Positions 4,801-31,533 of a stretch of 47,469 nt of DNA are shown in pieces. The notes below the pieces were generated by a model. It worked only from the letters and a program-made list of their open reading frames with translations, was not told the origin of the DNA and searched no databases. Numbering within the stretch: position 1 is the first letter of the stretch; every line of letters starts with the position of its first letter. A program made the position numbers and the translations under genes. This stretch comes from an uncultured Bacilli bacterium (GTDB lineage Bacteria > Bacillota_I > Bacilli_A > RF39 > UBA660), in contig CALVKE010000038.1 in assembly GCA_944332535.1 (NCBI GenBank), positions 1 to 47,469 of the forward strand, written 5' to 3'.

Positions 4801-5703
4801 CTACTTTTCAAAATAAGCATTCGATGTAGAACCGGGAGCAGCTCCACCTTTTTTAACAAGAACCACTTCAAGTCCTTCAAGACGATAAGCGTATCCTGCA
4901 GTTCCAGCTTTTGCTCCATTTTTTGCCCATCCTAACCATCCAAAGTTCTCGGCATGAACACGATAATAAACATCATAATATTTTGCCATTTCTCCAGTTA
5001 GTTTTATTTCGATTGCTTCCAAGCGTTTTGCTTCTCCGCTCGTTCCGCTCATCTCTCCATTTTTCTTGAAGCTACTTTCCCATCCATAATCTTCAATGTG
5101 CGTACGATATTCGATATTTCCGCTATATTCTGGATTATCTAAATAGATTCGAACTCCTTCGAGGCGTTTTGCTTCTCCACTTGTTCCACTCATTTCTCCA
5201 TCGTATTTATATCCTTGCCATCCGTAGTCTTCTACATGCGTCTGATAATGCACGTATCTTTGCACATACGGTCTACTCGTTACTCCTGGCGCTTTTCCAC
5301 CTTTTTCAACCAATACGATTTCGATTCCTTCTAGACGATAAGCATATCCTGCGGTTCCAGCTTTTGCTCCATTCTTTGCCCAATCTAACCAACCAACATT
5401 TTCGGCGTGGACACGATAATAAATGTCATATTCTTTTGCCATCTCACCAGTTAGTTGAATTTGAATAGCTTCCAAACGTTTTGCTTCCCCGCTCGTTCCG
5501 CTCATGGCGCCGTTTGTTTTCCAACTTTCTTCCCATCCATAGTCTTCAATATGCGTACGATATTGCACTCCTCCACTATATGGAAGATTTTCTAGTTTAA
5601 TATTGATTCCTTCTAAGCGTTTTGCTTCTCCTTCTGTTCCACTCATCGCACCATTTTTTACATAATTTTGCCATCCGTAATCCTCAACATGAGTTCGATA
5701 AGA
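4801..5703 (-). repeat. ChW repeat region: a three-module block duplicated
   Basis: Six ChW modules of about 45-55 residues form two triplets with the same order: a DYGWQ module, a DYGWE module ending LTGEMAK, and a module with YYRVHAEN and AGTAGYAYRLEG. Corresponding DNA in the two triplets is about 453 bp apart (for example the AGACGATAAGC stretch near 4878 and near 5331). The order shows that a block of three, not single modules, was duplicated. Confidence 0.88.
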
Positions 5704-8700
5704 AACATTTGGGATTTTTTCAACGACTTTTACTGTACATGTTGCCGTTTTTCCATTCGATGTTTTTACTGTAATCGTCGTCGTACCAATCGTTTTTGCG
5801 GTGATTTTTCCCGTACTATCTATGGTTGCAACACCAGTATTGCTCGACGTCCAACTAAGTGTTTTGCTATCCGTCGTATTACTTGGATTAATCGTTGCAG
5901 TCAAAGTAGTTGTAGATCCTTTTTGTATACTTGTGTTTGTTTTATTTAGGGTAACACTAGTAATGGGGCGAGACGGTACTGTAATCGTACAAGTTGCAGT
6001 TTTTCCATTAGAAGTCTTTACGGTAATTGTTGCTGTTCCATATCCCTTAGCTGTTACTTTTCCAGTGCTGTCTACCGTTGCAACAGTTGTACTGTTTGAA
6101 GTCCAAGTAAGTGCTTTACTATCTGTTGTATTACTTGGATTGATCGTTGCACTTAGTGTTAATGTCGATCCCTTTTCAATTGTTGCACTCGTTTTATTTA
6201 ATGTTACACTTGTAATAGGATGCGTTGGTACCGTGATCGTACAAGTTGCAGTTTTTCCATTTGATGTTTTTACTGTGATTTTGACTGTTCCATATCCTTT
6301 AGCTGTCACTTTACCGGTACTATCTACGGTTGCAACATTTGTATTACTTGATGTCCAGGTAAGTGTTTTACTATCCGTTGTATTACTTGGATTAATTGTT
6401 GCACTTAACGTTAGTGTAGATCCTTTTTCAATTGTCGCACTCGTTTTATTTAATGTTACACTTGTAATTGGAATGGGGTTTACTGTAACCTTACAAGTTG
6501 CTGTTTTCCCATTGGATGTTTTTACTGTAATCGTCGTCTCTCCAATCTCTTTGGCGGTAATTCTTCCTGTACTATCTACGGTCGCAACACTTGTATTACT
6601 TGATGTCCAAGTGAGTGTTTTGCTATCTGTCGTATTACTTGGATTGATTGTTGCTGTTAATGTGGCAGTAGTTCCTTTTCCAATCGATAATGTCGTCTCA
6701 TTTAGTGTTACTCCTGTAATTGCCACTGGCTTTTTAATTACGTAGATATACGAACGACTTGTTTTACCGTTAGAAGTAGTTGCAGTAATCGTTGTGCTAC
6801 CTATCGCTTTTGCCGTTACTTTTCCAGTATTATCCACTGTCGCAACACTCGTGTTACTAGAGGTCCAAGTAAGATCTTGACTAATCGTTGCATAGGTTGG
6901 CTTAATCGTAGCTTTTAATTGTAATGTATCTCCAACATATACATTGGAAGTGATTGGTGAAGTGCTTACTGAGGTAATTTCAATAGGAGAAGAGGTTACA
7001 ATTACATCAAAAGCTTCTGTTTTCGATGGATTATTAATTGCATTGGCAAAGATCGTAACTCTTCCCTCTCCTTCTTTTACTCCTGTTAATATTCCATTTT
7101 CATCTACTGTTACAATATCTTTATCCCAAGAAACAAACTTTGTAGAATAAACAAGAGCATTACTTGGCTCATAAGAAAAATCAATCTTTTTCTTTTCTCC
7201 TACGTCTAAAACAATAGTATCTGCTACTACAATTTGATTAAGATAAGTCCCAATTGTAATAATATATTCCTCGCTAACACCAGCAAGTGTTACACGAATT
7301 GTTGCTGTTCCGTCTTTTAAAGCAGTAATAGTTCCATTTTCATCAATCGTTGCAATCGTTGGATTTAAGCTTTCCCATTGAAAAAGATTTTTTGGAATGT
7401 CTCGTTTTGCTAGACCCCATTCTACATTGACTAATCGCGTATATTCCATTTCTTTTGTTTCCCCAACTTTCATTGGGTTAGCAATTTCAGAATCATCTTC
7501 TGTGGTCCGTAATCCCACATCAAAATTTATATACTGTTTAGCGAGTAGTTCATATTCTTCTTTTTCAGCTGTTACCCCCGTTTTGGTTGATAATCCATTG
7601 GATTCTTCATAAGAAAATAATTGAACCCAATAATAAATTCCATTTGATTCATAGCACCCTACACCAATGGATTGAAAACTAGATCTTAAAATATTGGCTT
7701 TATGTCCATACGAACCCATCCAACCATTTACTACATAAGCAGCTGTTGTATAATTTGCTGCAATATTTTCTCCATTTGCTTTTTGTATATCTAAAGCTTC
7801 TGCCCCGGTCGGCCTCGTATGGCTATAGTAAAGAGCAAGTTCTTTTGCCCGTTGCATAGCGGCCTCCGTTAACTCTGCATCCATTTTTAATGGACTAACA
7901 CCAACATTAAAGCGTTCCTCATTTACAAGAGTAACTACTTCATTTGCCATATCATAATTATATTTTCCTGAAATTGGCACACTAATTACGTCTCTATAAC
8001 TTCCGTCATTTATAAGTGTCAAGTTATCAGGAACAGTGAAGGTTGGAGTATTTGATTGATAATAGAAATTATTATTTAAAAAATCTACTTCCTCTGGAAA
8101 CTCAATGTAACGAAGCTCTGGTGAATAACTGATTCCAGTATTAAGAATTCCTTCTAACGTACCGTTAAAATAAATTTCTTCTAGGCTAGCATTTCTGTAA
8201 ATAGCCCACATATCGACAACTCCAACATTTCCATCAAATATAATGGTATCTAACAGGTCACATTCCGCAATCGATTTATAGGGTACTTCCTCAATATCTG
8301 CATGTATTGTCAATGTCTCAAGAGCATCTAATTCATAAAAAGCAAACATTTCAATTAAAGTTACGCTTTTGGGAACGACTAATTCTACTAGACTATCACA
8401 ATAGCTAAATGCAGATTCTCCAATTTCTTCTACCCCGTTTGGAATCGTGATACTCGTTAAGTTAGAAACGTAGGTAAAGGCCGCTTCCCCAATTATTTTA
8501 ACGCTAGATGGTATCGTATAAGAAGTTCCCGTCTTAGCAGCAGGATAAGCAACTAATTCTGTTTTATCTTTTGTAAACAAAACTCCATTTATAGCAGTAA
8601 AGTTTTTATTTTCGGAGTTCACTACAATTTCACGAATATTCGTATCCATTGCAATTCCTGAACCAATTTTTGATACATTCTTAGGAATGGTTACAGTACG

Positions 8701-9147
8701 AATTTGTGTATTACCAATAAATAAATTTACTCCTATCTCTTCTAATGATGTTGGGAAAGTAATCGAAGAGATTTTGGTGTTTTGTAGAGCATTATCTCCT
8801 AGCACTTTTAGATTGCTTGATAGGCTAATCATTGTCAAATTACTGCAATCGGCAAACGCTCCCAGTTCAATCGTCTCGATCGTATTTGGCATTTCTATCG
8901 ATTCGATTGTTGTTTTGGACATAAATGCTTTTTGTCCTATTATCGTAATATCTTTCCCATCAATTTGATTTGGGATTTCTACGATTTCCTCCTCTCCCAA
9001 ATATTTATCAATTTGAACAGTATTATCTTCTAAGATGGTATATTGATATTTCCCATCTGATGTTGTTTCTGCCAAAACATTAGATGATATGAAAAAAGTT
9101 GCAAAAGTTAAAAATATAAACAATATTTTTCTATTTTTGCCTCTCAT
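4801..9147 (-). CDS. Large secreted mosaic surface protein: BspA-type LRR, CAP domain, Big_2 repeats, ChW repeats
   Basis: A 1448-residue exported protein. A signal peptide (basic KNRK, hydrophobic core, cut after VLAE near residue 25) leads into BspA-type leucine-rich repeats (about 30-390; pattern IP..V..IG..AF..C..L). Next comes a CAP/SCP domain (about 395-512) with NEERFNVGVSPL, the HTRP motif and GENIAA. Seven Big_2 Ig-like repeats follow (about 555-1145), the first two divergent. Six ChW (clostridial hydrophobic W) repeats, each with a GW and the SGEAKRLE or AGYAYRLE block, reach the C terminus. There is no LPXTG; ChW repeats probably bind the wall or its glycans. LRR and CAP parts suggest adhesion or host contact, which is inference. 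I use the ATG at 9147, 9 bases after AAAGGAGTGG, not the TTG at 9168. It is a single-gene unit. Confidence 0.93.
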   Translation of the reverse strand: MRGKNRKILFIFLTFATFFISSNVLAETTSDGKYQYTILEDNTVQIDKYLGEEEIVEIPNQIDGKDITIIGQKAFMSKTTIESIEMPNTIETIELGAFADCSNLTMISLSSNLKVLGDNALQNTKISSITFPTSLEEIGVNLFIGNTQIRTVTIPKNVSKIGSGIAMDTNIREIVVNSENKNFTAINGVLFTKDKTELVAYPAAKTGTSYTIPSSVKIIGEAAFTYVSNLTSITIPNGVEEIGESAFSYCDSLVELVVPKSVTLIEMFAFYELDALETLTIHADIEEVPYKSIAECDLLDTIIFDGNVGVVDMWAIYRNASLEEIYFNGTLEGILNTGISYSPELRYIEFPEEVDFLNNNFYYQSNTPTFTVPDNLTLINDGSYRDVISVPISGKYNYDMANEVVTLVNEERFNVGVSPLKMDAELTEAAMQRAKELALYYSHTRPTGAEALDIQKANGENIAANYTTAAYVVNGWMGSYGHKANILRSSFQSIGVGCYESNGIYYWVQLFSYEESNGLSTKTGVTAEKEEYELLAKQYINFDVGLRTTEDDSEIANPMKVGETKEMEYTRLVNVEWGLAKRDIPKNLFQWESLNPTIATIDENGTITALKDGTATIRVTLAGVSEEYIITIGTYLNQIVVADTIVLDVGEKKKIDFSYEPSNALVYSTKFVSWDKDIVTVDENGILTGVKEGEGRVTIFANAINNPSKTEAFDVIVTSSPIEITSVSTSPITSNVYVGDTLQLKATIKPTYATISQDLTWTSSNTSVATVDNTGKVTAKAIGSTTITATTSNGKTSRSYIYVIKKPVAITGVTLNETTLSIGKGTTATLTATINPSNTTDSKTLTWTSSNTSVATVDSTGRITAKEIGETTITVKTSNGKTATCKVTVNPIPITSVTLNKTSATIEKGSTLTLSATINPSNTTDSKTLTWTSSNTNVATVDSTGKVTAKGYGTVKITVKTSNGKTATCTITVPTHPITSVTLNKTSATIEKGSTLTLSATINPSNTTDSKALTWTSNSTTVATVDSTGKVTAKGYGTATITVKTSNGKTATCTITVPSRPITSVTLNKTNTSIQKGSTTTLTATINPSNTTDSKTLSWTSSNTGVATIDSTGKITAKTIGTTTITVKTSNGKTATCTVKVVEKIPNVSYRTHVEDYGWQNYVKNGAMSGTEGEAKRLEGINIKLENLPYSGGVQYRTHIEDYGWEESWKTNGAMSGTSGEAKRLEAIQIQLTGEMAKEYDIYYRVHAENVGWLDWAKNGAKAGTAGYAYRLEGIEIVLVEKGGKAPGVTSRPYVQRYVHYQTHVEDYGWQGYKYDGEMSGTSGEAKRLEGVRIYLDNPEYSGNIEYRTHIEDYGWESSFKKNGEMSGTSGEAKRLEAIEIKLTGEMAKYYDVYYRVHAENFGWLGWAKNGAKAGTAGYAYRLEGLEVVLVKKGGAAPGSTSNAYFEK
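5718..6730 (-). repeat. Tandem Big_2 repeats of about 252 bp
   Basis: Four highly similar units with a period of 252-255 bp (equivalent points near 5958, 6210, 6462 and 6717), each coding for about 84 residues with INPSNTTDSK, LTWTSSNT, VATVDSTGK and KTSNGKTATC. More divergent units extend to about 7475. Near identity at DNA level makes the array prone to copy-number change by recombination. Confidence 0.9.
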
Positions 9148-9172
9148 TTTCTCTCCACTCCTTTTCAACTGT

Positions 9173-9540: not shown

Positions 9541-9909
9541 ATGGCAAGAATAAGAAAAGAACCTAATAGGTATTGGTCAAAAGAAGAAAAATTAAAATTA
9601 ATAAAAGAAGTTTTAAATGGTGAATCGTCAGTTCAAGTTGCAAAAAGATATGATATATCTGATGGAATGCTCAGAAATTGGATTATTAAATATAATAAAT
9701 ATGGTGAATCATCTTTAGAAAATAAAAAGAAACCTGGAAATCCTTTATGTAAATATTCAAATAGAAAAAACTTAACAGAAATAGAACAACTTCAATATGA
9801 AAATATGAGATTAAAAATTGAAAACAAACGATTAAAAAAAGGTTACCTAGTGAAAGGAGATGGTACAGTTGTAGTAGTAGACGAGAAAAAGTTTTGGAAT
9901 TCGAAATAG
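9541..9909 (+). CDS. IS3-family OrfA, helix-turn-helix protein
   Basis: A 122-residue protein. An N-terminal helix-turn-helix (about 10-55; WSKEEKLKLIKEVL, SVQVAKRYDISDGMLRNWI) binds the element ends. A leucine-zipper-like helix (about 82-105, IEQLQYENMRLKIENKRLKK) mediates pairing with OrfAB. It starts at an ATG 9 bases after GGAGG. Its stop at 9907-9909 lies past the start of orfB, which is in the -1 frame, so the functional transposase is expected from a frameshift near 9886-9891. Confidence 0.9.
   Translation: MARIRKEPNRYWSKEEKLKLIKEVLNGESSVQVAKRYDISDGMLRNWIIKYNKYGESSLENKKKPGNPLCKYSNRKNLTEIEQLQYENMRLKIENKRLKKGYLVKGDGTVVVVDEKKFWNSK
9851..9891 (+). promoter_or_regulatory. Probable -1 programmed frameshift region between orfA and orfB
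   Basis: In the orfA frame the codons AAA AAG at 9886-9891 form an AAAAAG slip site. An AAAGGAGA ribosome-binding-like sequence lies about 30 bases upstream and could act as a stimulator. Slipping back one base joins orfA to orfB. The upstream base is G instead of A, so the classic A6G heptamer is not complete. Confidence 0.5.
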
Positions 9910-10778
9910 TAGAAACATTAAGTAAAGATTATTCTATAAAATCATTATGCGATATAATGAATATTTCAAGAAGCGGATATTATAAATGGTTGAAAAACAA
10001 AGATATTTTAAATCAATATGAAAGCAATCGTAGAGATTTAGAATCATTAATTAGAGATATACATAAAAGAAAACCAAGTTATGGTTATCATAGAATAAAT
10101 GCTATTATTCGAAGAGAAACAGGATGGGTCGTTTCAGATAATTTGGTACATAAAGTTTGTAAGATCTTCAAAATAAGAAGTAAAGCTAGACACTATTCGA
10201 TTTATAAGAAACCAGGAGAAGAATCAATAAAATATCGTAATATTATAAATAACAATTGGAAAACTTCTCGCCCTTTTGAGAAAATAACGTCCGACACAAC
10301 AATGATTTGGTTTAAAAGACAAAGATATGATTGGACATATTACGTAGATGCATTTGATGATTCTATAATAGGATCAGATATTAAACCTTTTTATCACGGA
10401 GTAAGCGTGTCTAATCATAGAAATGCTTTAAATGATATGTTACAAAATAAAATAAAAAGAGGATATAAAAGCCAAGAAACTATTTTCCACTCAGATCAAG
10501 GCACAATATATTCCTCATTGGCATTTAATAATGCACATAAAGATTATAAAATAATTGGGTCTATGTCGAGAATAGGTACACCAACAGATAATCCAATTAT
10601 TGAATCAAAAAACGGTTGGTTAAAGAAAGAAATGTATATTGATTTTAATCAAGAAGATTATGAAACTGTTGAACAATATATAGAGGCTATTATATATGAT
10701 CATAATTACTTAAGACCCAGTTATGCATTAAATTATAAAACCCCAATTGAGTATAGAAATCAATTGGGGTTTAAATAA
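9894..10778 (+). CDS. IS3-family OrfB, DDE integrase/transposase
   Basis: A 294-residue frame containing an N-terminal HTH_21-like segment (about 50-105; HKRKPSYGYHRINAII) and an rve integrase core. The three catalytic positions are present: Asp in ITSDTTMIW, Asp in HSDQGTIYSS and Glu in NPIIESKNGWLKKEM. The YRNQLGF tail is typical. The only start in this frame is a TTG, without a ribosome site next to it, so the protein is probably made as an OrfA-OrfB fusion. The Asp of the first motif is followed by TT instead of the usual VT or IT. No inactivating change is visible. Confidence 0.9.
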   Translation: MEFEIVETLSKDYSIKSLCDIMNISRSGYYKWLKNKDILNQYESNRRDLESLIRDIHKRKPSYGYHRINAIIRRETGWVVSDNLVHKVCKIFKIRSKARHYSIYKKPGEESIKYRNIINNNWKTSRPFEKITSDTTMIWFKRQRYDWTYYVDAFDDSIIGSDIKPFYHGVSVSNHRNALNDMLQNKIKRGYKSQETIFHSDQGTIYSSLAFNNAHKDYKIIGSMSRIGTPTDNPIIESKNGWLKKEMYIDFNQEDYETVEQYIEAIIYDHNYLRPSYALNYKTPIEYRNQLGFK

Positions 10779-10919: not shown

Positions 10920-11816
10920 TTAAAATTCTTCTTGTTTATAGACAGATGGGAAAAAAGGAAAAAACTTATATCGTCCTTTGTCCCAGAAATAGGTATAATC
11001 GAACCCTTTCGAAAACAGGACAGCACCAATGGTGCCACTAGTTCTTCCTGCAATAAAGCAATCACATTTCGATAATAGAATAATTGTCGTTAAATATTCT
11101 AGTCCTTTTAAATAAGCATCATTTTTTCGTTCGAAATGGATTTTCGATAAATAAGATCCTTTTGTATTTGAAAATCGCTTTTGATTACTGTAAATTAATT
11201 TTTTCCCGAAAGCCTTTTGAAATTTTTTTAAAATTTCTTCGTCTTCTGTTGCTAAAAAAAGTTTTTGACATTTGCGTCTTTTCATCACTTTTTTGGCTTT
11301 TTCAATAACTTCTTCTGCCGTTGGTTGCACAGGATGACGGAACGGTTTTAACTGCACATAATCCGTTCCTCTACAAAGTACCCCTAAAACTCTATCTTTT
11401 CTATCTTTTCCAAATAAATTTCTTTCTTCTTTCTCAATGACTTTTCTAGTTCCATAATTCAATCGTATATATTTTTGAGCAATCTTTTTCCAATAATCTC
11501 TTTTTTTCTTATTCAAAAAGAAAGACATCGAATCATTTGGACGATTTCTCGGCACACTTGTTAACTCTTCCCATTTCTTTCCTTCAATATCTTTTAATGA
11601 AATATTCATTGGCTGTTCAAAAAAGAATTCCCAAGCATTCTTGAGTCCTACTTCCCCTTCTTCTAGATAAGCATTGGGGTAGGTTTGCATATCAATCACA
11701 GGAATCTTCCCCTCTTGGATTACCTTATTAATATTTCCAATATTCGTAATCACATAAGAAAAAAGTCCGAGATGATCTCCATATCTTTTAATTACTACAT
11801 ACTTTTCTTCTGTCAT
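10920..11816 (-). CDS. O-fucosyltransferase/NodZ-like glycosyltransferase
   Basis: A 298-residue protein. Its central block GVLCRGTDYVQLKPFRHPVQPT (about 145-165) resembles the GDP-binding HxRGTDY...HP loop of the GT23/O-FucT superfamily. LFLATEDEEILKKF and a late CDCFIAGRTSGTIGAVLFS block also fit. The superfamily moves L-fucose, or related sugars, from GDP donors. No membrane helix is seen. The start follows AAGGAGAAGAAC. It lies 10 bases after the flippase-GT11 gene and closes the operon, so two GDP-fucose-type enzymes are adjacent. The assignment is from motif resemblance; the donor sugar is inference. Confidence 0.65.
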   Translation of the reverse strand: MTEEKYVVIKRYGDHLGLFSYVITNIGNINKVIQEGKIPVIDMQTYPNAYLEEGEVGLKNAWEFFFEQPMNISLKDIEGKKWEELTSVPRNRPNDSMSFFLNKKKRDYWKKIAQKYIRLNYGTRKVIEKEERNLFGKDRKDRVLGVLCRGTDYVQLKPFRHPVQPTAEEVIEKAKKVMKRRKCQKLFLATEDEEILKKFQKAFGKKLIYSNQKRFSNTKGSYLSKIHFERKNDAYLKGLEYLTTIILLSKCDCFIAGRTSGTIGAVLFSKGFDYTYFWDKGRYKFFPFFPSVYKQEEF

Positions 11817-11826
11817 GTTCTTCTCC

Positions 11827-13929
11827 TTATACTTCTATTAAAATCCAATCATCTTCGTAAATATCTACTTTTTGATTTGGATTTTGAAACCATTTCGATG
11901 GAGCTATGGTAATTCTTTTTTTACTATCCGTCAAATATTGTGCCCACCAACTAAAAGAAGAATTGGAAATGATAAAATGCTTACAGTGATACATGAGACG
12001 TAATTCCTCATAATTTGGATTATTTCCTTCTATAAATACCATTTTCTCATTCGATTTTAAATGTTCCTTCACCCAAGCAATATCGTCTGAGAAAATAAAG
12101 AACGTAGGATCTTTCACTCTTTTTTTCATCACTTGCATTGCGTTTTGATAATACTCTATTGTACAAACTTGATGATTACTTCCTACATAGTCTCCTCTTC
12201 TAATATGGACACACACGGATGTTTCTTTTTTTATTTTGTCTAATATCTTTTTATTTTGAGGGAGTACTTTCTCTTTTACCCTTAATTCCTTCTTTAAAAT
12301 ATCTTTGTATTCCTCAAAGTATTTTAACGATTGATAGTATCCTACCATCACCTGGTGACGACTAGGACTTTCTTGTAGTTCCATATACCCATCTGGAACA
12401 CAGTAAAATCCAAAATAATTTAGTATTGGTTGCATTTTTTGCATAACTCTAAAACCGTTTTTTCTCTTTCCTAAAAATACGTAGTAAAATCCATAGAGGA
12501 GATAATTCAAGGAACTTTTGATCCCTTCTCTTTTTGTTATTTTTATTTTTTTTGAAATACAGAAATGATTTAATGAATAAACATTATGTGTTTTGTTCGT
12601 AATTCCTTTTAAAGAGAGCTCTCCTTCTATATGGTACTTCAGCATATGACTTCGCAGTGCACAATATTCAAACATTTGGTTTCCTAATCCTCCTGCTAAA
12701 CGCATCGTTACCTTTCTAGAGGAAGAATTGCTATAATGTTCAATTAAGAATAAATAAACGGTAAATTGAAAAAACATGATGAATAAGTAAGAAAGACTGG
12801 CTCCTAATAAGGCATGTCTCGGAATAATATAATAGCATACAAGAATAGCAGAAAAAGCATCTATTATTAGTACCATTAGTTGTGAAAAAGTCTTTCGCAT
12901 CGCTATTAAGACTGCTGAAAAAAAGGAAGATAGTGCGTAAAAGGTAGAAGCTAGTAGAATGATTACTAAATTTATTTGCTGGTTAACTAAGTCAATTCCA
13001 TATAATAACTCTAAGACTGGTTCTCCTAAGAAATATCCTCCGATCATACAGCAACCGCCGCACACTGCAACGAACGCTGAAATTTTAAAAAGAAATACTT
13101 TTAAATCATGATATTTTTTATCTCCTACCATCTCTCCGATTCTTACTAAGAAAGGTTGAATAATATACCCGGCAACCAAAGATAGAAAGGAAGCTGGCAT
13201 AATAATAATTCCATAAATTGCTTGAAGGTCATTCTGTCCTAACAATTCTAATGCATAACGAGGGGCATTTAATAAATATATGGTCAAAAAAGAAAACAAG
13301 AAAGTATAGGTACCATCTCTTAATAAATGGAAGTTGCGTCTCCAAGAAAAAGGAGTTTTCTTGATTGGTTTAGCAGATGGAATATCATAACCTATTAAAA
13401 ATAATACGCCGGTTATCACAATGGCAAGACATGCTAAGACTAGATTTTTCGTTCCATAATTAACGAGGAAAAATACCCCTGTTATTACAACTGCTCTTGC
13501 AAAAAGAGAAATTCCTGCTCTATACAAATTACCATTCTTTTGGGTAATTGCATGGAAAGATTCCATAATTGCATCTAATCCGCGGTATAGTGTTAAAAGG
13601 AATAATACCATTCCCTTTTTTCCATCACACCCCGTACATAAAATAAAAATAACTGCAGCGATGATGGCAATAATATAGGTAAAAAGGCGGTTATAGATAT
13701 AATCGGTATCGGAATACTGATTTTTAATATCTGTAATTTGAAAGGTCTTTCCACAATAAGCTGCAACTGCATATAGAATACATGCTGTTGCAAAACAATA
13801 CGTAAAAATTCCTGCATCTTCGATCCCATTAACTCTGGTTGTAATCATCATGAAAAAAAGAGAAGTGAATCCAAATATCAAAGATCCGATAAAATTCCAA
13901 ATAAAATTCTTTTTCGTTTTCTCTTGCAT
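11827..13929 (-). CDS. Wzx-type flippase fused to a GT11 alpha-1,2-fucosyltransferase
   Basis: A 700-residue fusion. Residues 1-408 form a polysaccharide-synthesis/MATE-like flippase with about 12 hydrophobic helices, the full family number. Residues 409-700 are a complete GT11: MRLAGGLGNQMFEY at its start, HIRRGDY (about 575), FSDD, and ISNSSFSWWAQYL (about 657). With an even helix count both ends should be cytoplasmic, placing GT11 on the donor side. An internal ATG at 12705 falls exactly where free-standing GT11 proteins begin and is preceded by AAAGG 5 bases away, so a separate 292-residue GT11 might also be made. The main start follows GAAGGAGG. The fusion suggests fucosylation coupled to flipping; that is inference. 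Confidence 0.88.
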   Translation of the reverse strand: MQEKTKKNFIWNFIGSLIFGFTSLFFMMITTRVNGIEDAGIFTYCFATACILYAVAAYCGKTFQITDIKNQYSDTDYIYNRLFTYIIAIIAAVIFILCTGCDGKKGMVLFLLTLYRGLDAIMESFHAITQKNGNLYRAGISLFARAVVITGVFFLVNYGTKNLVLACLAIVITGVLFLIGYDIPSAKPIKKTPFSWRRNFHLLRDGTYTFLFSFLTIYLLNAPRYALELLGQNDLQAIYGIIIMPASFLSLVAGYIIQPFLVRIGEMVGDKKYHDLKVFLFKISAFVAVCGGCCMIGGYFLGEPVLELLYGIDLVNQQINLVIILLASTFYALSSFFSAVLIAMRKTFSQLMVLIIDAFSAILVCYYIIPRHALLGASLSYLFIMFFQFTVYLFLIEHYSNSSSRKVTMRLAGGLGNQMFEYCALRSHMLKYHIEGELSLKGITNKTHNVYSLNHFCISKKIKITKREGIKSSLNYLLYGFYYVFLGKRKNGFRVMQKMQPILNYFGFYCVPDGYMELQESPSRHQVMVGYYQSLKYFEEYKDILKKELRVKEKVLPQNKKILDKIKKETSVCVHIRRGDYVGSNHQVCTIEYYQNAMQVMKKRVKDPTFFIFSDDIAWVKEHLKSNEKMVFIEGNNPNYEELRLMYHCKHFIISNSSFSWWAQYLTDSKKRITIAPSKWFQNPNQKVDIYEDDWILIEV

Positions 13930-13941
13930 GTTGGCCTCCTT

Positions 13942-14904
13942 CTATAAATATAAATACTTTGCAAGATGTTTTAATAGAAATTTAAGAAGTGCATAATATT
14001 TTTTATGAATGATATATAAATATGTTCGGTAAGATATCGGAAGCGTAGAAATATAGCGATTTTGATACCAATTTGGATACTCTTTTTCTACATGTTCACA
14101 AATCTCTTGAATCATTTCTTTGGAAAAATGTTGGTGAAAACTAGCTCGATACGTAGTTCCTATTAAAATATGATATAAATTCATAAATTCAATGTTTTGA
14201 CGATATTTTTGATAAATTCTTTTTTTCTTTGCAAATGATTTTATCTCTTCCATAATTTGATAGATATCAAAAATTCGATCGTCCGCCCTTCTTACTAAAG
14301 ATCCCTCTTGCTGGCGATAATTATGTAAGAATTCATCCACAATGCTAAAACTTTTCGCACTAATAAATACTTCTGCTCCTACTAATAAATCCTCATACCA
14401 AATGTTTTCGGGGAATCTTATTTTATTATCCTTTAATAAACTTAACTTACATAATTTATTCCACATGGCTGGAAATTTTGCAAGATATACATCTTCTTTC
14501 GTCATGTGATGATATGTTACTTTGTTCGGATAAATTCTTTTAATGCTACAAATCGTAAAATCTACATTTTTTTCTTGGATTTCTTGATATAAATTTTCTA
14601 GATAAGTGTCTTCCAAATAATCATCGCTGTCGATAAAGGAAATATACTCTCCTTTGGCTCGATCTAATCCATAATTCCTAGCACTACTGACTCCTCCATT
14701 TTCTTTGTAATAGTAATGAAATCTTTTATCTTCTTTTATTTCTTCTTGAATAATGGTAGCTGTTTGATCGGTACTCCCATCGTCTACTAATAATACTTCA
14801 AAATGGGGATAGGTTTGCTTTTGTATGGATTGAATGCATTCAGCAATATATTTTTCCACATTATAGCATGCAATAACAATTGTAATCTTACTTTTTTTCA
14901 CCAT
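13942..14904 (-). CDS. Glycosyltransferase family 2 (GT-A)
   Basis: A 320-residue enzyme with ITIVIACYNVEKYI (about 7-20), LLVDDGSTDQT (38-48), NGGVSSARNYGLDRAKGEYISFIDSDDYLED (the acceptor loop and DXD, about 68-98) and NIWYEDLLVG (the ED base region, near 165). The C-terminal third is basic and aromatic without clear membrane helices, so it probably sits on the inner face of the membrane. Its ATG at 14904 overlaps the end of the DUF2304 gene by 17 bases, which suggests translational coupling. AGAGGA precedes the start. It is most like the capsule-type transferases that use UDP-Gal, UDP-GlcNAc or similar; the sugar is not predictable. Confidence 0.87.
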   Translation of the reverse strand: MVKKSKITIVIACYNVEKYIAECIQSIQKQTYPHFEVLLVDDGSTDQTATIIQEEIKEDKRFHYYYKENGGVSSARNYGLDRAKGEYISFIDSDDYLEDTYLENLYQEIQEKNVDFTICSIKRIYPNKVTYHHMTKEDVYLAKFPAMWNKLCKLSLLKDNKIRFPENIWYEDLLVGAEVFISAKSFSIVDEFLHNYRQQEGSLVRRADDRIFDIYQIMEEIKSFAKKKRIYQKYRQNIEFMNLYHILIGTTYRASFHQHFSKEMIQEICEHVEKEYPNWYQNRYISTLPISYRTYLYIIHKKYYALLKFLLKHLAKYLYL

Positions 14905-15226
14905 AACACTTTTCCTCTAATAACGCTACTCTTTGCGCTAACTCTGTTATTTTTTCTTGTTGCTCAGAAATTCTCTTGCTGTTTCGAAAGTTGATAAATA
15001 CCAAAAAGATAATACAAAACACAAAAAATAAAGAAGGCGGATAATATACTCCAAAGAATTCTGCTACTTTGTTAATCGAATAAGGAAAAATTGCTAAAAA
15101 TAACATGACGATAGCTGCTATCGTCCACCAAAAGCTTTCTTTGATCGAAAACTTTTTCTTTCGCACTTCTGAAATAATATAAATAATGCTGAGTAGAGCA
15201 ATGATAATAAAATAAATCGTTTTCAT
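14888..15226 (-). CDS. DUF2304 small membrane protein (GacJ-like partner)
   Basis: A 112-residue protein with three hydrophobic segments (about 1-18, 33-50 and 62-79) and a charged, coiled-coil-like tail (80-108, SEQQEKITELAQRVALLEEK). This is the DUF2304 layout. In group A streptococcus the DUF2304 protein GacJ binds the polyprenyl-phosphate GlcNAc synthase GacI and strongly raises its activity. Here the gene starts by an ATGA overlap with a GacI-like GT2, the same arrangement, so the same role is likely. AAGGTGAAAG precedes the start. Confidence 0.87.
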   Translation of the reverse strand: MKTIYFIIIALLSIIYIISEVRKKKFSIKESFWWTIAAIVMLFLAIFPYSINKVAEFFGVYYPPSLFFVFCIIFLVFINFRNSKRISEQQEKITELAQRVALLEEKCYGEKK

Positions 15227-15951
15227 CGTTCTTTCACCTTCTTTTTAGGATGTTGAATCAAAATAAATACGATGGTATAAAACATATTCACCATATATCT
15301 TATGGGTTTGATAATGCCACCATGCATGCTTTCTCCTGCCTTTCTAAGGCGCATTTTAACTGGAATTTCTTTAATTTTATATCCTTCTAATAACATTTCA
15401 ATAATTAAATTGGCATCTGGAAATTCTGGATATCCTCCCATTTCAGAATAACGATCGATCACTTTTTTATTGATACACTGAAATCCAGATAAAGGGTCTG
15501 CTATTTTTTCTTTACAAAATAATTTAATCATCCCAGAAAACAACTTAGTTCCGAGTTTCCGAAAAAAAGGGGCTGGATAACCCATATCTTTTAAATATCT
15601 GGATCCAATCGTAATATCATAGTTGCCTTCTTTAGCCGCCTCATATAATTTTAATGCTTCCTTTGCAATATGTTGTCCGTCCGCATCAAACTGAATCACA
15701 TAATCATAATCGTACAGATTCGCATATTTAATTCCCGTTTGCACAGCCATCGCGTATCCCATATTAAATACTCCTGTGATACATTTTACCTTATTTTTTC
15801 TTACAATTTCTTCGGTTGCATCTTTCGATGAGTCATTAATTACTAGAATATCTGCAAAACTAGCGTCTTTTTTAATTTCTTTTAATACTTTTTCAATATT
15901 TTTTTCTTCATTATACGCTGGGATGACAAATAACACCTTTTCTTTTTCCAC
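15223..15951 (-). CDS. Polyprenyl-phosphate sugar synthase-like GT2 (GacI/DPM1 type)
   Basis: A 242-residue GT-A enzyme: VLFVIPAYNEEKNI (about 6-19), VINDSSKDAT, FNMGYAMAVQTGIKYA, QFDADGQH (DXD) and DPLSGFQCINKKVI. This matches the DPM1-like group that charges undecaprenyl phosphate with a sugar. A single hydrophobic stretch (about 217-232) lies near the basic C terminus. The start is a GTG at 15951, 8 bases after AAGGAGG; the family's short N terminus supports it. It sits between a GT-C-like DUF2142 gene and a DUF2304 gene, as in lipid-linked side-chain systems: the product would be flipped and used outside by the GT-C. Confidence 0.87.
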   Translation of the reverse strand: MEKEKVLFVIPAYNEEKNIEKVLKEIKKDASFADILVINDSSKDATEEIVRKNKVKCITGVFNMGYAMAVQTGIKYANLYDYDYVIQFDADGQHIAKEALKLYEAAKEGNYDITIGSRYLKDMGYPAPFFRKLGTKLFSGMIKLFCKEKIADPLSGFQCINKKVIDRYSEMGGYPEFPDANLIIEMLLEGYKIKEIPVKMRLRKAGESMHGGIIKPIRYMVNMFYTIVFILIQHPKKKVKER

Positions 15952-15964
15952 GATGATTACCTCC

Positions 15965-18085
15965 TTATAAAAAATAATGAATAATTGTATTGATTACATT
16001 AAAATGAACAAAAATGATAAGGGCTGTATAAACGAGTCCTATTTTAGGAAAGAATAGATATCGTTTCTTATTACATAATAGAAGGAATGGTAAAATAGCA
16101 ATCGGTAAGAAATATCTTCCTTGTACTCCTTCTGCTACGCTTGCTCCAACAGAGGTCCAGGTTAAATACATTCCAAAAATAGTAAGTAAGAAAATCACTG
16201 CAAATACGCTTATCATTCCGATCTTCTCCCATTTCGTGTATTCTTCTTTTTCTTTGATTAAGAAGGGAGAAAGTAATAAGAGTAAGATATAAATATTAAT
16301 AACCATTCGATCAATAGAAATGTTAAACCAACCGAGTTCTACGCCGAAAAAACTATCCCAGTAAAATGTTGCATTTGTTCCGATCGTATTAATAAATACT
16401 CGCAAAATAGAAAATGGATGCGATAATAGATTGGATAGTTGAGAACCCAAACTAATATTTTTTACTGCGACTTCCTCACTGACCACTTGTGTTGGAGTCA
16501 TTGCATGAAGAATGTATAGTCCAATACATACAAGGATAGATGCAATCGTAAAGAGGACAATTCTTTTTTTATCTTTAGTTGGGACCCATTCTTTTTTCAT
16601 AAATAAAAGAAGAAGACTCAGCAAAACGAGAGGAATATAGACGTATTTCATGCAAGCAACCAATAACATGGATAATAATAGTAATACTTGTTGCTTTTTG
16701 GTCACTTTCTTCTTTCGCTTTAGTAAATATAAGATATAACATATATAGAAAATACCAAACATATTCATCATGGAATCTGCGGATACCGAAATTGCTTGTT
16801 GCAACCACATTGGATTTAGAAAGTAGATTGTTAAAACGAGCTTTCCGATCGGTAATATTTTGATAGAGAAATAAGCAAGTAGTAAGAAAACGATAAAAGT
16901 GAGGATTCTTGCCAAGTAAAATCCTACGAAATAAGGTAGATGAAATACCTTTCCCAAAGAAAGTCCTATAATAGATGGAAGATAGGAAACAATACTATAA
17001 CCAGATGCCGTAGACTTTCCCATTTCGCCATTCGGAGGCGTCAATAGTAGATCATTTAACTGCTGGTAACTTTTTAAATTAGAACTATTATTGTCTTCTA
17101 CTATTTTAGGAATCTCTACATAGGTTCCAGTATCTTCTAAAACACCTTGTGTTATTTTATAGGCAGAAGCATAGTGAACGATCTCATCCGGAACGTGCGT
17201 TGGAGGGAGAAACAAAAGATATCCAAGGCCAATTGGAATCGCAAAAAGAAGAAAATAATCTTCTATTTTACGAGTGTGTCTTGATTCTTGATAAGCTTGT
17301 AGAAAAAGAAGAATTTCGCCACATAATAATAGGCCCCCAAAGCATAAATAAGAAAAGGTAAAATGATAATAAAGGTGGATAATAAACACGTATAACAAAC
17401 CGAGCGATAAGCCACTCAATAAGAAATAAATAATGTAAAAAATAGTTTTTTTCTTAAGGAATGGTAGGTATGAATGAATCTTTTCGTTTTTCCATACCTG
17501 TAAATAAAAATAAAAGCTAATGACAAAAAGGAAGAGGAAAAGTACTAAAATTCCTGCTAAAAACACTGTATCTCCCGTTAAAATGATAGCACTCTGATAA
17601 GGATAATGCTCCTCTTTTATTTCAACGTATTCCTCCCTTTGATTACTTTCTTTTCCATAAATTGCAATTTTTTCTTCTTCTTCGCACTCTCTACACTGTA
17701 GTTCAAAACTCAATAGCTTTCCTTTACTATCTCCTATTTTGTCAAAGGAAAATACGACGTAGGTGTTATCTGTAATATCGTCTGTCTTTAAATCTACTTT
17801 TCGAATCTCCTCTCCCTGGCTGTTTCTTAGAGTGAAATCTAATGTTTTATCTTCTATTGTCTGTTGATAGGTTCCTAATTTTATAGCAATTGAATCTAAA
17901 TTATCTACACTTGAATAAAAGAATTGCGTCACACTATTGTCTTGATAAATATTCGTATAGACCAAATCGTCTGAACCTCGATAATTTTCTACATGATAAA
18001 AGTTGCCTTTCAACAAAATCCCTATTAAGGAAATAGAGCATAAAAGAAATAAGCCAAATAAAATTTTATTCTTATTCTTTTTCAT
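15965..18085 (-). CDS. DUF2142 polytopic membrane protein, GT-C-like
   Basis: A 706-residue membrane protein. After a first helix (about 8-25) comes an outward domain of about 140 residues, then some 12 more helices. Diagnostic DUF2142 blocks are LPPTHVPDEIVHYASAYKI (about 295-312), NPMWLQQAISVSADSMMNMFG, and WDSFFGVELGWFN. The PDE motif in the first long outer loop parallels the metal-binding acidic loop of GT-C glycosyltransferases that use polyprenyl-phosphate sugars. By analogy with GacL it may add a side-chain sugar to the growing or exported glycan outside the membrane. It overlaps the upstream tandem-GT2 gene by 14 bases, and the GacI/GacJ-like genes follow it. Specificity is unknown. 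Confidence 0.82.
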   Translation of the reverse strand: MKKNKNKILFGLFLLCSISLIGILLKGNFYHVENYRGSDDLVYTNIYQDNSVTQFFYSSVDNLDSIAIKLGTYQQTIEDKTLDFTLRNSQGEEIRKVDLKTDDITDNTYVVFSFDKIGDSKGKLLSFELQCRECEEEEKIAIYGKESNQREEYVEIKEEHYPYQSAIILTGDTVFLAGILVLFLFLFVISFYFYLQVWKNEKIHSYLPFLKKKTIFYIIYFLLSGLSLGLLYVFIIHLYYHFTFSYLCFGGLLLCGEILLFLQAYQESRHTRKIEDYFLLFAIPIGLGYLLFLPPTHVPDEIVHYASAYKITQGVLEDTGTYVEIPKIVEDNNSSNLKSYQQLNDLLLTPPNGEMGKSTASGYSIVSYLPSIIGLSLGKVFHLPYFVGFYLARILTFIVFLLLAYFSIKILPIGKLVLTIYFLNPMWLQQAISVSADSMMNMFGIFYICYILYLLKRKKKVTKKQQVLLLLSMLLVACMKYVYIPLVLLSLLLLFMKKEWVPTKDKKRIVLFTIASILVCIGLYILHAMTPTQVVSEEVAVKNISLGSQLSNLLSHPFSILRVFINTIGTNATFYWDSFFGVELGWFNISIDRMVINIYILLLLLSPFLIKEKEEYTKWEKIGMISVFAVIFLLTIFGMYLTWTSVGASVAEGVQGRYFLPIAILPFLLLCNKKRYLFFPKIGLVYTALIIFVHFNVINTIIHYFL

Positions 18086-20189
18086 TTTTCTCTACCTCCT
18101 TTTTATCTAGTACAAAACACATTTCTTTACTTAGATTCGGGTTATAAAAAGGATCATTTTGTAATATTTTTTTCCACTTTTTTTTCATATATTCCGTGGA
18201 ATACTGCAATTCTTTTGCTTTTTCGGGACTTTGGCTCTTGCCACGACTTAACGATTCATAATGATAAAGCTCTACTTGTGGTAAACAGATATTATAGTAG
18301 CCTTTTTCTAGTAATTTTAAGCAAAAATCAATGTCATTATAATTTATTTCTAATTCTTCTGTTAATCCGTTCACTTCAAAGTATTTCTTTTTATCAACCA
18401 TTAGACAGGCTCCAGTAACAGCAGCATAATTATAAGGAACAAGTAATCTTCCCGCTAGGGCAGATGCAAATTTGTCTTTTAGATAGTACGCATGATTTGC
18501 AATCTTTTCTTCCCCTACTCCTACTACTACTCCAGCATGTTGAATCTTTCCATTTGCAAATAAAAGCTTTGCTCCTACTGCGCCAATGCGTTCTTGCATT
18601 GCATAACCTAACATGATTTCTAACCACTCTCCATCGATTACTTCCACATCATTGTTTAACAGTAATAAATAGTCTCCTTCGGCATGCTTTGCTCCTATGT
18701 TGTTAATTTTTGAATAATTAAACTTTTCTGGATATTCCATCACTTTTAAATTATCGTGCTCTTCTTGTAATTTTCGCAATCCTTCCATCGTATGTGCTTC
18801 TTGACTATTGTTATCGATTATGATCACTTCATAATTTTGGTACTTCGTTTTTTGATATATCGAATTTACACAGGTCTCTACAAGCCCTATTTTGTCTTTT
18901 GTTGGAATGATAATAGAGACTTTCGGATTATTTTTCATTTCATATTTTAAAATATAGGAAGTTGCTATATTAGCGATCGATGCTTTGATTTTTCTTCTTT
19001 TTAAGGCATCTTCTAATGCTTTTATTCCACTCATGCTAGCATAACTTTTATTATCTGTCGTCATGGAAGTGGATCCTTCTATCATTCTCCAATGATATAA
19101 AATTTTAGGAATATGGTAAATGTTTTGTGTTTGTTCCGTAAAGCGGAGCATTAAGTCATAGTCTTGTGCTCCTTCATACCCTTTCCTAAAGTTTCCTATT
19201 TGCTTTACAAGTGATGTTCTTAACAACGCAAAGTGACAAATATAGTTATGACTTAGCAAGGTATCTGGCGACCAGTCTGGTTTAAAATGTGGGTCACATC
19301 TTCTTCCAAATGGATCTATTTTATCTTCATCCGTATAAATAAGATCTAAGTTTTTATTTTTGTTTAACGCTTTTACTACTTCGTAAAGAGCATTTTTGTC
19401 TAATATATCATCATTATCCATTAGACCAATAAATTCTCCTCTGGCAATCTTTAGTGCAGAATTACTTGCTTTGGAAATATGACCATTTTTCTTTCGATAA
19501 ACAACATGCACTTTGTCATATTTTTTTTCCATTTCTTTTAATAGTTGAATCGTTTCTTGATTCGTAGAAGCATCATCGGCGATACAAAGTTCAAAATTTG
19601 GATATGTTTGCAGCATTACAGATTCTATTGCCTCTTTTAGATATTTTGCATCGACATTATAAACAGGCATAATGATCGAAATGAATGGCATGTAGGAAAA
19701 CTTTTGATAAGAAGAAGATTGGGGATTTTCCCGCAGCCAATCATTATAATCTTCTATGCTGAAAAGTTGATAGAAACGTTCCTCTTTTGACCGATTCAAA
19801 ATAATCCGTTTGATAAATAAGGAGGCATATTCTTTTAATTTCTTAGGGGGGATGAAAAAGTGATACTCTCTCCAGAGAAACTGAATATTTCGTTTTATAT
19901 AAGAGCATTTTCTAGTACGATTTCGCTTTCTTTGTAAAGAAGCGAGAGAGGTTTGATAAAGAAGTGTCTCTTTCTTTTTTTCTATGCAATAAACCATCAA
20001 CTTTTTTCCTTCTTTTGGACAAGCAAACATAAAAGAAAAACGACAATCAGAAAGATTCGGATTTTCCTCTAGCAAAACTTGTTGATCTAATAAAACTTTT
20101 AATTGACTTCGGTTAGAAGGAAGAGTTCCAGAAATATATAAATCTGCAGTATCTTCCAATAACTCGATCTTCTCTATTTCCTGTTTCAT
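18072..20189 (-). CDS. Tandem-domain family 2 glycosyltransferase
   Basis: A 705-residue protein with two GT2 domains. The first (about 168-400) has ISIIMPVYNVDAKYL, CIADDASTNQE, GLMDNDDILD and IYTDEDKID. The second (about 420-690) has VSIIIPTKDKIGLVETCV, IIDNNSQEAHT, LLLLNNDVEVID and NYNDIDFCLKL. The first 160 residues resemble no domain I can name but look beta-rich. Two-domain GT2 enzymes of this type are usually rhamnan or O-antigen polymerising transferases that make two alternating linkages. That fits the adjacent rmlA, WsaF-like and ABC-export genes. The ribosome site AGGAGG is strong. Rhamnose as the substrate is inference. Confidence 0.85.
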   Translation of the reverse strand: MKQEIEKIELLEDTADLYISGTLPSNRSQLKVLLDQQVLLEENPNLSDCRFSFMFACPKEGKKLMVYCIEKKKETLLYQTSLASLQRKRNRTRKCSYIKRNIQFLWREYHFFIPPKKLKEYASLFIKRIILNRSKEERFYQLFSIEDYNDWLRENPQSSSYQKFSYMPFISIIMPVYNVDAKYLKEAIESVMLQTYPNFELCIADDASTNQETIQLLKEMEKKYDKVHVVYRKKNGHISKASNSALKIARGEFIGLMDNDDILDKNALYEVVKALNKNKNLDLIYTDEDKIDPFGRRCDPHFKPDWSPDTLLSHNYICHFALLRTSLVKQIGNFRKGYEGAQDYDLMLRFTEQTQNIYHIPKILYHWRMIEGSTSMTTDNKSYASMSGIKALEDALKRRKIKASIANIATSYILKYEMKNNPKVSIIIPTKDKIGLVETCVNSIYQKTKYQNYEVIIIDNNSQEAHTMEGLRKLQEEHDNLKVMEYPEKFNYSKINNIGAKHAEGDYLLLLNNDVEVIDGEWLEIMLGYAMQERIGAVGAKLLFANGKIQHAGVVVGVGEEKIANHAYYLKDKFASALAGRLLVPYNYAAVTGACLMVDKKKYFEVNGLTEELEINYNDIDFCLKLLEKGYYNICLPQVELYHYESLSRGKSQSPEKAKELQYSTEYMKKKWKKILQNDPFYNPNLSKEMCFVLDKKEVEKNEKE

Positions 20190-20202: not shown

Positions 20203-20970
20203 CTATAACTCTTCTGCAAATCTTTTTTCCAGTTTTTTAAATATTTTATGTCCTAAATATACCAAAATCATACTTAATAGTAACAGTAAGAAGAGATCTT
20301 GAAAAGGGGGAGCAGTTTTATATAATAAAATATCTCGATAACAAGTAATAATTTGAGTCATAGGATTTAATTCTAGAATCCATCTTACGTTTGCTGGAAA
20401 CATAGTACTATTATAGACAATTGGCGTTGCATAAAACAACATATTAATAAAGAAATTGATAATGTACTCTGCATCTCTTATATATACGTCAACAGCACTC
20501 GTAATAAAAATAATTCCTAGTGATAATAAATATTGTGCCAAGATGACGAGTGGTAAGAATAGGATATTATAACTAATTCCAATCCCACTAAAAATAACAA
20601 ATAAGAAGATTACAATAAAAGAAATTAGAAAGTTTACTAACCCACTTGTGGCAATCGAAATCGGTAAGATTTCTCTTGGAAAATAAACCTTTTTAATAAT
20701 TCCAGCGTTCATAAGAATGCAGGTGGTTCCCTGCATAATAGTGGTCGTAAAAATATTCCATGGAATGATACCAACTACTAGAAACGTTAAATAATTTTCT
20801 TGTGTTGTCTTTAAAATAAAAGGAAACACAATAGCATATATCAATGCAGAAAGAAGAGGATTGACAAAGGACCATAATATTCCTAAAAAAGATCCTTTGT
20901 ATTTACCACGAACTTCTTTTTTTACATTATTTTTTAATAATTCTCTATAATTGTATAACTCTTTTATCAT
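20203..20970 (-). CDS. wzm: ABC transporter permease for polysaccharide export (Wzm/RgpC/TagG type)
   Basis: A 255-residue ABC-2-type permease. The family's N-terminal signature is present (YRELLKNNVKKEVRGKYKGSFLGILWSFVNPLL, about 7-40), followed by six hydrophobic helices and a short basic tail. The usual partner ATPase gene lies 14 bases upstream. The family exports complete, undecaprenyl-linked polysaccharides such as O-antigens, rhamnans and teichoic acids to the outer face. GGGAGG lies 5 bases before the ATG. Length equals the family norm of about 255-270. Confidence 0.93.
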   Translation of the reverse strand: MIKELYNYRELLKNNVKKEVRGKYKGSFLGILWSFVNPLLSALIYAIVFPFILKTTQENYLTFLVVGIIPWNIFTTTIMQGTTCILMNAGIIKKVYFPREILPISIATSGLVNFLISFIVIFLFVIFSGIGISYNILFLPLVILAQYLLSLGIIFITSAVDVYIRDAEYIINFFINMLFYATPIVYNSTMFPANVRWILELNPMTQIITCYRDILLYKTAPPFQDLFLLLLLSMILVYLGHKIFKKLEKRFAEEL

Positions 20971-20984
20971 GGTTCCTCCCGTTT

Positions 20985-21713
20985 CTAACCACAGACTTTC
21001 AAATATTCTTCAATGACTTTATCAATTTTTCCATCCATTCTGATTTTTCCATCATAAATCCAAATACCCCTCGTACAAAGATTTCGAATCGCCTCTAAAC
21101 TATGGGAAACAATTACAATTGTTTTGTTACTGTTTTTTAATTGGTTCAATTTTTCGAAACACTTATCCTGAAAATGTTGATCTCCTACGGCTAAAATTTC
21201 ATCGATTAACAATATTTCAGCATCCACATTAATCGCAATCGAAAAGGCAAGACGCATGTACATTCCAGAGGAATACGTGCGAATGGGTTGGTCGATAAAC
21301 TCTTCTAGCTCTGAAAAAGCAATAATTTCATCTATTCTTTTTTCAATTTCTGCTTTCGTAAGGCCGAAAATAGAAGCATTGAAGTAAATGTTTTCTCTTC
21401 CTGTAAAATCTGGATGGAACCCTGCTCCAAGTTCCAATAAAGAAGTCAATTTCCCTTCTGTTTTAATTTCTCCAGAAGTAGGATAAATAATTTTGGTCAT
21501 TAATTTTAGAAGGGTTGATTTTCCACTTCCATTAGTTCCAATTAAAGCGACCGTCTCGCCCTTTTTAATTTTTAAATTAATATCTTTTAGAATCATTCTA
21601 GTTTCTACTTTGTTTTTTCGAAAAACAAGACGTTCTTTGAGGGTTGCGGGTTTGTCCGTTGCTATTTTAAAACTCTTGCTCATGTCCTTGATTATAATTG
21701 CATATTCTTTCAC
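20985..21713 (-). CDS. wzt: ABC transporter ATPase for polysaccharide export (Wzt/RgpD/TagH type)
   Basis: A 242-residue nucleotide-binding subunit. Walker A is GTNGSGKST (59-67), the Q/linker region LLELGAGFHPDFTGREN (92-107), the signature TYSSGMYMRLAFS (147-159) and Walker B EILLIDEILAVGD (166-178). It lacks the C-terminal carbohydrate-binding domain that O9a-type Wzt proteins use to recognise a capped chain end, so export is probably coupled to synthesis instead. The start is a GTG at 21713, 5 bases after GAGGTGA, and the ribosome site overlaps the TGA of the upstream GT4 gene. It pairs with the permease downstream. Confidence 0.94.
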   Translation of the reverse strand: MKEYAIIIKDMSKSFKIATDKPATLKERLVFRKNKVETRMILKDINLKIKKGETVALIGTNGSGKSTLLKLMTKIIYPTSGEIKTEGKLTSLLELGAGFHPDFTGRENIYFNASIFGLTKAEIEKRIDEIIAFSELEEFIDQPIRTYSSGMYMRLAFSIAINVDAEILLIDEILAVGDQHFQDKCFEKLNQLKNSNKTIVIVSHSLEAIRNLCTRGIWIYDGKIRMDGKIDKVIEEYLKVCG

Positions 21714-30366: not shown

Positions 30367-31533
30367 TTAATCTCTTACGAACAAATCACGAGTATAAACT
30401 TTTTCAGAAACATTTCGAACAAAATGATCAATACGGTTCGCTATGATTATCTCGCTTTTTTCTTGAAAGTCTTCTAAATCCTTTATTACCGGACAATCAG
30501 CAAAACTATTTTCTTTTAAAGTTGGTTCATAAATAATAACTGAGATATTTTTTTGTTTTAACAATTCAATAATACTTTGAATCGCACTCATTCTAAAATT
30601 ATCAGAATCTGCTTTCATAGTTAATCGATATATTCCAACTGTTTTAGGATTTCTTTTGGCAATTTGATCGGCAATGTGATGTTTTCTTGTATCATTGGAT
30701 TTTACAATTGCTTCAATAATATTTTCTGGAACATTCTCATAGTTTGCCAATAATTGTTTGGTATCTTTTGGAAGACAATATCCTCCATAACCAAAAGATG
30801 GATTATTATAGTAATCTCCGATTCTTGGATCTAAACATACTCCGTCAATAATATCTTTCGTATTTAGCCCCTTTAATTCTGCATATGTATCTAATTCATT
30901 AAAATATGCAACACGAAGCGCTAAATAAGTATTGGCAAATAATTTTACTGCTTCTGCCTCAGTAGAGTCCATAAATTTCACGGCTACATCCGGTTTCAAG
31001 CAGGAATCTTTTAGTAAGTTAGCAAATTCTTTTGCTTTCTCGCTTCTTTCTCCAACAATAATGCGAGAAGGATATAGGTTGTCATATAAAGCTTTTCCTT
31101 CTCTTAAAAATTCTGGTGAAAATATAATATTATCAATATGATACTTTTCTTTCATTGCTTTAATAAAACCAACTGGAACAGTACTTTTGACAACCATTGT
31201 TGTATCAATTCCCATACTAATTACCTTTTGAATGATATCTTCTACAGAAGATGTATCAAAGTAATTCTTTTGATCATCATAATTAGTTGGTGTACTAATA
31301 ATAATAAATTTAGCTCCTTCAAAAGCTTCTTTATAATCTAAAGTAGCTTTTAGATTCAAATCTTTTGTTTGAAGAAATTCTTCAATTTTTTCATCTTGAA
31401 TCGGGCTAATTCTATTATTAATCTTTTCTACTTTTTCTGCAATTACGTCCAAAGCCATTACTTCGTTTTTTTGACTTAGTAATACTGCTAAGGATAATCC
31501 TACATAACCAGTACCTGCTACTGCAATTTTCAC
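30367..31533 (-). CDS. ugd: UDP-glucose 6-dehydrogenase
   Basis: A 388-residue enzyme oxidising UDP-glucose to UDP-glucuronate with two NAD. The Rossmann loop is [13 protein letters not shown] (4-16). [26 protein letters not shown] and the catalytic cysteine in [14 protein letters not shown] (near residue 253) follow. Length is that of HasB/Ugd proteins. It starts at a GTG (31533) 7 bases after GGAAGGTG and overlaps the Wzx stop as GTGA. UDP-glucuronate or a product of it (galacturonate, xylose) is therefore a likely capsule sugar and would make the polymer acidic. Confidence 0.94.

Follow-up and report, generated by a model that had tools for sequence, protein, structure and literature searches.

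A flippase and a glycosyltransferase on one chain

A minus-strand gene of an uncultured Bacilli bacterium (family UBA660 of the RF39 lineage) encodes a MOP/Wzx-like flippase and a GT11-type glycosyltransferase in a single chain of 700 residues. The gene lies on contig CALVKE010000038.1 (assembly GCA_944332535.1), of which positions 1 to 47,469 were analysed and are called the window below. The fusion is confirmed as real, and its sequence and gene context lead us to favour, with moderate confidence, a role as one bifunctional membrane protein for the extracytoplasmic decoration of a cell-wall polysaccharide with side chains. A sugar-adding enzyme and an exporting transporter are thereby found on one chain in an uncultured gut bacterium and in at least three other genera of its family. 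The features of the fusion gene are as follows.

11827-13929, minus strand: flippase-GT11 fusion ORF, ATG start, 700 aa, zero internal stops
12730..13929, minus strand: MOP/Wzx-like flippase domain, residues 1 to about 400, 12 predicted helices (AlphaFold2 model and Foldseek)
12715..12732, minus strand: linker of about 6 residues, from the end of helix 12 to beta strand 1 (secondary structure of the model and junction alignment)
11830..12714, minus strand: GT11-type glycosyltransferase domain, residues about 406-700 (PF01531, motifs and fold match)
12703..12705 (first base 12705), minus strand: in-frame ATG (M409) with a weak ribosome site, proposed as an internal start and unlikely to be used

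The ribosome-binding site before the start codon of the fusion ORF, AGAAGGAGG, is strong (-11.7 kcal/mol) and ranks among the stronger ones in the operon. An earlier note on this DNA had described the two parts as joined in frame by only a few residues, and this description holds: the ORF is uninterrupted, and in the AlphaFold2 model the last helix ends at about residue 399 and beta strand 1 spans residues 406-410. A PDB sequence search with the whole fusion protein returned nothing useful.

Distribution and evolutionary history of the fusion

The search for the same domain pair suggested in the earlier note revealed the fusion in three further genomes, which together with the window genome represent four different genera of one family; alignment of the junctions showed that their sequences have diverged. 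The fusion is full length in G304 (699 aa, 53% identity to the window protein) and G270 (705 aa, 40% identity). In G848, the reading frame is cut off by the end of its contig; the missing C-terminus lies on another contig, which overlaps this end. Outside the family, the class and phylum samples contained the flippase or the GT11 protein alone, and the fusion was not found. Similarly, in the best 80 loci from at least 545 relatives in the named collection, GT11 and flippase occurred only as separate ORFs, several of the GT11 ORFs having a multi-helix, Wzx-sized gene immediately upstream. No published flippase-glycosyltransferase fusion was found in the open-licence literature.

One clade of the flippase tree (support 100/99) contains the four GT11 fusions together with a single unfused flippase (L065), and a constraint grouping the four fusions was not rejected (p 0.157). 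In the tree of GT11 domains, those of the fusions fall within a small family-specific set, and a single clade was again not rejected (p 0.457). The two trees are thus compatible with one fusion event followed by a later loss, which would be the simplest account, although the GT11 fusions may also have had separate origins.

Two other fusions of the same flippase type, both independent of the GT11 fusion, were identified in the family.

L034, 9185-11218: flippase-GT2 fusion, 677 aa
L035, 9412-11784: flippase-GT4-type fusion, 790 aa

In L042, the sister of L034 (flippase 78% identical), the homologous GT2 is encoded by a separate gene.

Fold and topology of the flippase domain

The AlphaFold2 model of the fusion, built from an alignment of eight rows, is of modest confidence (mean pLDDT 72, pTM 0.51). 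It is helical to residue 399, consistent with 12 helices, and the hydropathy plot gives 11-12 segments in the membrane part. The best Foldseek matches of this part were WzxE (E 2e-6), MurJ and MATE transporters, WzxE being the best solved fold for the domain, with about 15% identity in the structural match. Pfam gave no match for the N-terminal 408 residues of the window protein, and the Polysacc_synt matches of its close homologues fall below the threshold (E 0.002). We do not claim membership in PF01943 as curated; the fold match supports assignment to the MOP superfamily, whose flippases have 12-14 helices with the MOP fold, 12 being predicted here. Within the family, the domain is 33-40% identical to stand-alone flippases of about 408 residues. 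WzxE and other MOP flippases share the 12 helices and the fold with the membrane domain of the fusion; however, WzxE transports Und-PP-linked lipid III and lacks a glycosyltransferase domain, whereas the window flippase carries one.

In four homologues (L064, L032, L034 and L035), lysine and arginine favour the even (inside) loops (17-22 against 4-7), and this bias suggests that both flippase termini lie inside the cell. The glycosyltransferase domain is therefore predicted to be cytoplasmic. The even number of about 12 helices given in the earlier note agrees with the predicted model, and its placement of the GT11 part on the cytoplasmic side is upheld as a topology prediction from the helix count and the loop bias.

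The GT11-type domain and its donor sugar

The C-terminal domain matches PF01531 with E 1e-43 and 150 bits (curated cut-off 23.9), and the same family is found above cut-off in L064 and L032. The GGLGNQMF, HIRRGDYV and SNSSFSWWAQYL motifs are conserved among the fusions, HIRRGDYV being invariant there. Foldseek matched the soluble part of the model with NodZ and Arabidopsis FUT1 (AtFUT1), more weakly than the membrane part (E about 2e-3). The HxRRxD motif and the fucosyltransferase fold that characterize GT11 are thus both present, and PF01531, HxRRGDYV and the fold are common to this domain and to GT11 alpha-1,2-fucosyltransferases and NodZ. Those GT11 enzymes are normally stand-alone and depend on GDP-fucose, whereas the GDP-fucose route was not found in the fusion-bearing genomes.

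Gmd was not detected over cut-off in any of the 12 GT11-bearing genomes of the family, all of them incomplete drafts and all four fusion genomes among them. The same search did detect genuine Gmd in one family member (G009) and in two genomes from other families that bear GT11. A Gmd match on contig C70 was rejected, as its sequence reads as a GalE-like protein of 335 aa. Fkp was absent from all eight family genomes examined, likewise incomplete drafts. Given these repeated absences, it is doubtful that GDP-fucose made in the cell is the donor. Among eight tested genomes, a ManC-like gene was found only in G304, where a ManC-like mannose-1-phosphate guanylyltransferase (L064, 3287-4354) lies directly upstream of the fusion; finding this gene where Gmd was not detected is a hint that a GDP-sugar different from GDP-fucose may be the donor. 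The fucose-adding GT11 of the earlier note thus stands as a family assignment, by PF01531 and fold: since no pathway to a fucose donor turned up in the genome, 'fucosyltransferase' is best used here as a family label, and fucose transfer is a putative activity.

A GacI/GacJ-type cassette around the fusion

From high to low coordinates, the operon comprises the ABC exporter, a tandem GT2, a DUF2142/GtrII protein, a DPM1-type GT2, a DUF2304 protein, a GT2, the fusion and a FUT8-like protein.

20203-20970 (permease) and 20985-21713 (ATPase), minus strand: ABC polysaccharide exporter (PF01061, PF00005; TagH/Wzt-like NCBIfam matches)
18072..20189, minus strand: tandem GT2, candidate backbone polymerising enzyme (PF00535, two stretches)
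15965..18085, minus strand: DUF2142/GtrII-type membrane protein, candidate GT-C transferase in the role of GacL/WpsJ (PF09913 E 8.6e-47, PF14264 E 2.2e-7)
15223..15951, minus strand: DPM1-type GT2, GacI-like, candidate Und-P-sugar synthase (PF00535; dolichol phosphate mannose synthase in the PDB, E 1.8e-19)
14888..15226, minus strand: DUF2304 small membrane protein, GacJ-like (PF10066 E 1.4e-30)
13942..14904, minus strand: GT2 glycosyltransferase, candidate second-sugar enzyme (PF00535 E 3.5e-41)
10920..11816, minus strand: FUT8-like protein of the fucosyltransferase superfamily, directly downstream of the fusion (FUT8_N_cat E 2.5e-4, below cut-off; homologue in L032)

The gene order of the window is repeated up to the fusion in G848, and the stretch from the DPM1-type GT2 through DUF2304, GT2 and fusion to the FUT8-like gene is repeated in G270. 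At most of the flippase loci examined, the DPM1-type GT2 and DUF2304 pair precedes the flippase directly or with mostly one or two genes between. Unfused GT11 genes (L049, L051, L070, L113 and L114) are also located in GacI/DUF2304 cassettes, right after either a different, longer Wzx-like gene (475-513 aa) or a DUF2304-sized gene.

The DPM1-type GT2 followed by DUF2304, a flippase and a GT-C-type protein in one cluster is the arrangement of GacIJK-type systems, DUF2304 being typical of GacJ-like proteins (PMC8327497). In the GacI-GacJ-GacK-GacL system of Streptococcus pyogenes (PMC8035078, PMC8327497), a DPM1-type GT2, a DUF2304 protein, a Wzx-type flippase, a GT-C-type protein and an ABC-exported polymer are combined as in the window; however, the window cassette has extra glycosyltransferases and its flippase is fused to a GT11-type domain, whereas GacK is described as a flippase alone. 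Among lactococci, the product of WpsA/B, homologous to the GacI/GacJ type, is extended by cytoplasmic glycosyltransferases and then flipped by WpsG (PMC10821137). This WpsA/B-WpsC..F-WpsG-WpsJ system (PMC10821137) resembles our model of the window in its Und-P-linked sugar and in cytoplasmic extension before Wzx-type flipping, but its extending glycosyltransferases and flippase are separate proteins and those of the window are fused. The streptococcal GacIJKL and lactococcal WpsA/B/G/J proteins build side chains on undecaprenyl monophosphate (PMC8035078, PMC8327497, PMC10821137).

Just past the downstream end of the operon, two overlapping ORFs at 9541-10778 resemble, by eye, an IS3-type transposase pair. 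Farther on, at 4801-9168, a protein of 1455 residues with leucine-rich-like and CAP-like parts and many Ig-like (BIG2-type) repeats has the appearance, also by eye, of a secreted surface protein.

Proposed mechanism and its rivals

Sequence analysis has shown that the fusion exists and recurs in four genera, has defined its cassette and has predicted the inside topology, and the following route would be consistent with these results. The GacI/GacJ-like pair would load a sugar onto undecaprenyl phosphate, and the GT2 enzyme would extend this Und-P-linked sugar. Next, the GT11-type domain of the fusion, which the linker of about 6 residues would keep at the inner side of the membrane, would add a further sugar, and the attached 12-helix MOP flippase would carry the Und-P-glycan outward. 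Finally, the GT-C-type DUF2142 protein would transfer the glycan to the ABC-exported polymer. Which substrate and donor sugar are used, in what order the steps run and whether the glycan is physically handed over are matters of inference; the coupling suggested in the earlier note, in which a late sugar is added and the glycan is then flipped by the same protein, is plausible. The repeated fusion of the flippase to different types of glycosyltransferases (GT11, GT2 and GT4) supports the bifunctional role.

The fusion is not required, because in a genome of the same genus (G014, L041) the flippase of the cassette is a protein by itself. For this reason, the main rival is a purely physical fusion, in which the stop between neighbouring operon genes was lost and both domains work with no coupling or hand-over. 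In favour of such a loss, the glycosyltransferase gene next to a flippase often follows it with hardly any gap or none, and unfused versions are common, also within the genus. However, four genera have retained the fusion while its sequence diverged, and this flippase type has been joined to glycosyltransferases of three families, so that we regard a merely physical link as unlikely, although it deserves serious consideration.

The bifunctional reading can be extended, tentatively, to a class of single-chain transferase-flippases, in which a cytoplasmic glycosyltransferase would complete the Und-P-glycan and hand it directly to the attached transporter; the module would be GT11, GT2 or GT4 depending on the lineage, and the donor of the GT11 version may be other than GDP-fucose. 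Such a class is possible, if doubtful at present. How flippases are kept from moving unfinished lipid-linked glycans has long been asked, and a protein in which a late-acting glycosyltransferase is naturally joined to its flippase offers a direct object for testing this. The cassette also adds a family of uncultured Bacilli from gut and rumen to the groups with GacIJ-type side-chain machinery, which has been described in streptococci, enterococci and lactococci.

Capsule flippase or side-chain flippase

The window contains other genes of polysaccharide assembly apart from this operon.

31530-33080: putative Wzx, separate from the fusion (by reading the sequence; Pfam no match)
34282-35409: Wzy-like gene (by reading the sequence; Pfam no match)
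39301-39975: Bac_transf initiator

These three genes point to an independent capsule pathway elsewhere in the window. The earlier note had implied that the fused flippase is the capsule Wzx, which would move Und-PP-linked repeat units, and both its MOP/WzxE-like fold and the Wzx/Wzy-type locus in the same window would suit that role. However, the fusion gene belongs to a GacI/DUF2304/GT-C cassette accompanied by an ABC exporter, and a second putative Wzx is encoded in the window along with the Wzy-like gene; we therefore disfavour a capsule role as improbable. Given the similarity of the cassette to the Gac and Wps systems, whose side chains are built on undecaprenyl monophosphate, the substrate of the fusion is likely an Und-P-glycan side chain and not a Wzx/Wzy capsule repeat unit.

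The internal ATG at the junction

A free GT11 protein made from the ATG at 12705 beside the 700-residue fusion, as hinted in the earlier note, is very improbable. The ATG and its AAAGG are indeed present, and in L064 an ATG with a moderate ribosome site (-5.6 kcal/mol) likewise stands at the junction. The window site, however, is weak: at -3.9 kcal/mol, it is equalled or exceeded by 22% of the in-frame ATGs inside the minus-strand ORFs of the window. Neither a junction start nor a ribosome site was found in L032 and L220, and free GT11 proteins start three residues before the position of the window ATG, which lies within beta strand 1 of the predicted model. The internal start was rejected for these reasons: the strength of its ribosome site, its lack of conservation and the structure.

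An assembly or sequencing artefact, for which the draft state of the window genome (G000; 1.12 Mb, 96 contigs, 90% complete) might speak, is effectively refuted, and with it the unrecognised stop or frameshift at the junction and the lone artefact among relatives for which the earlier note had allowed: the ORF is uninterrupted, and the fusion recurs in independent assemblies of three other genera, where the sequence across the junction has diverged.
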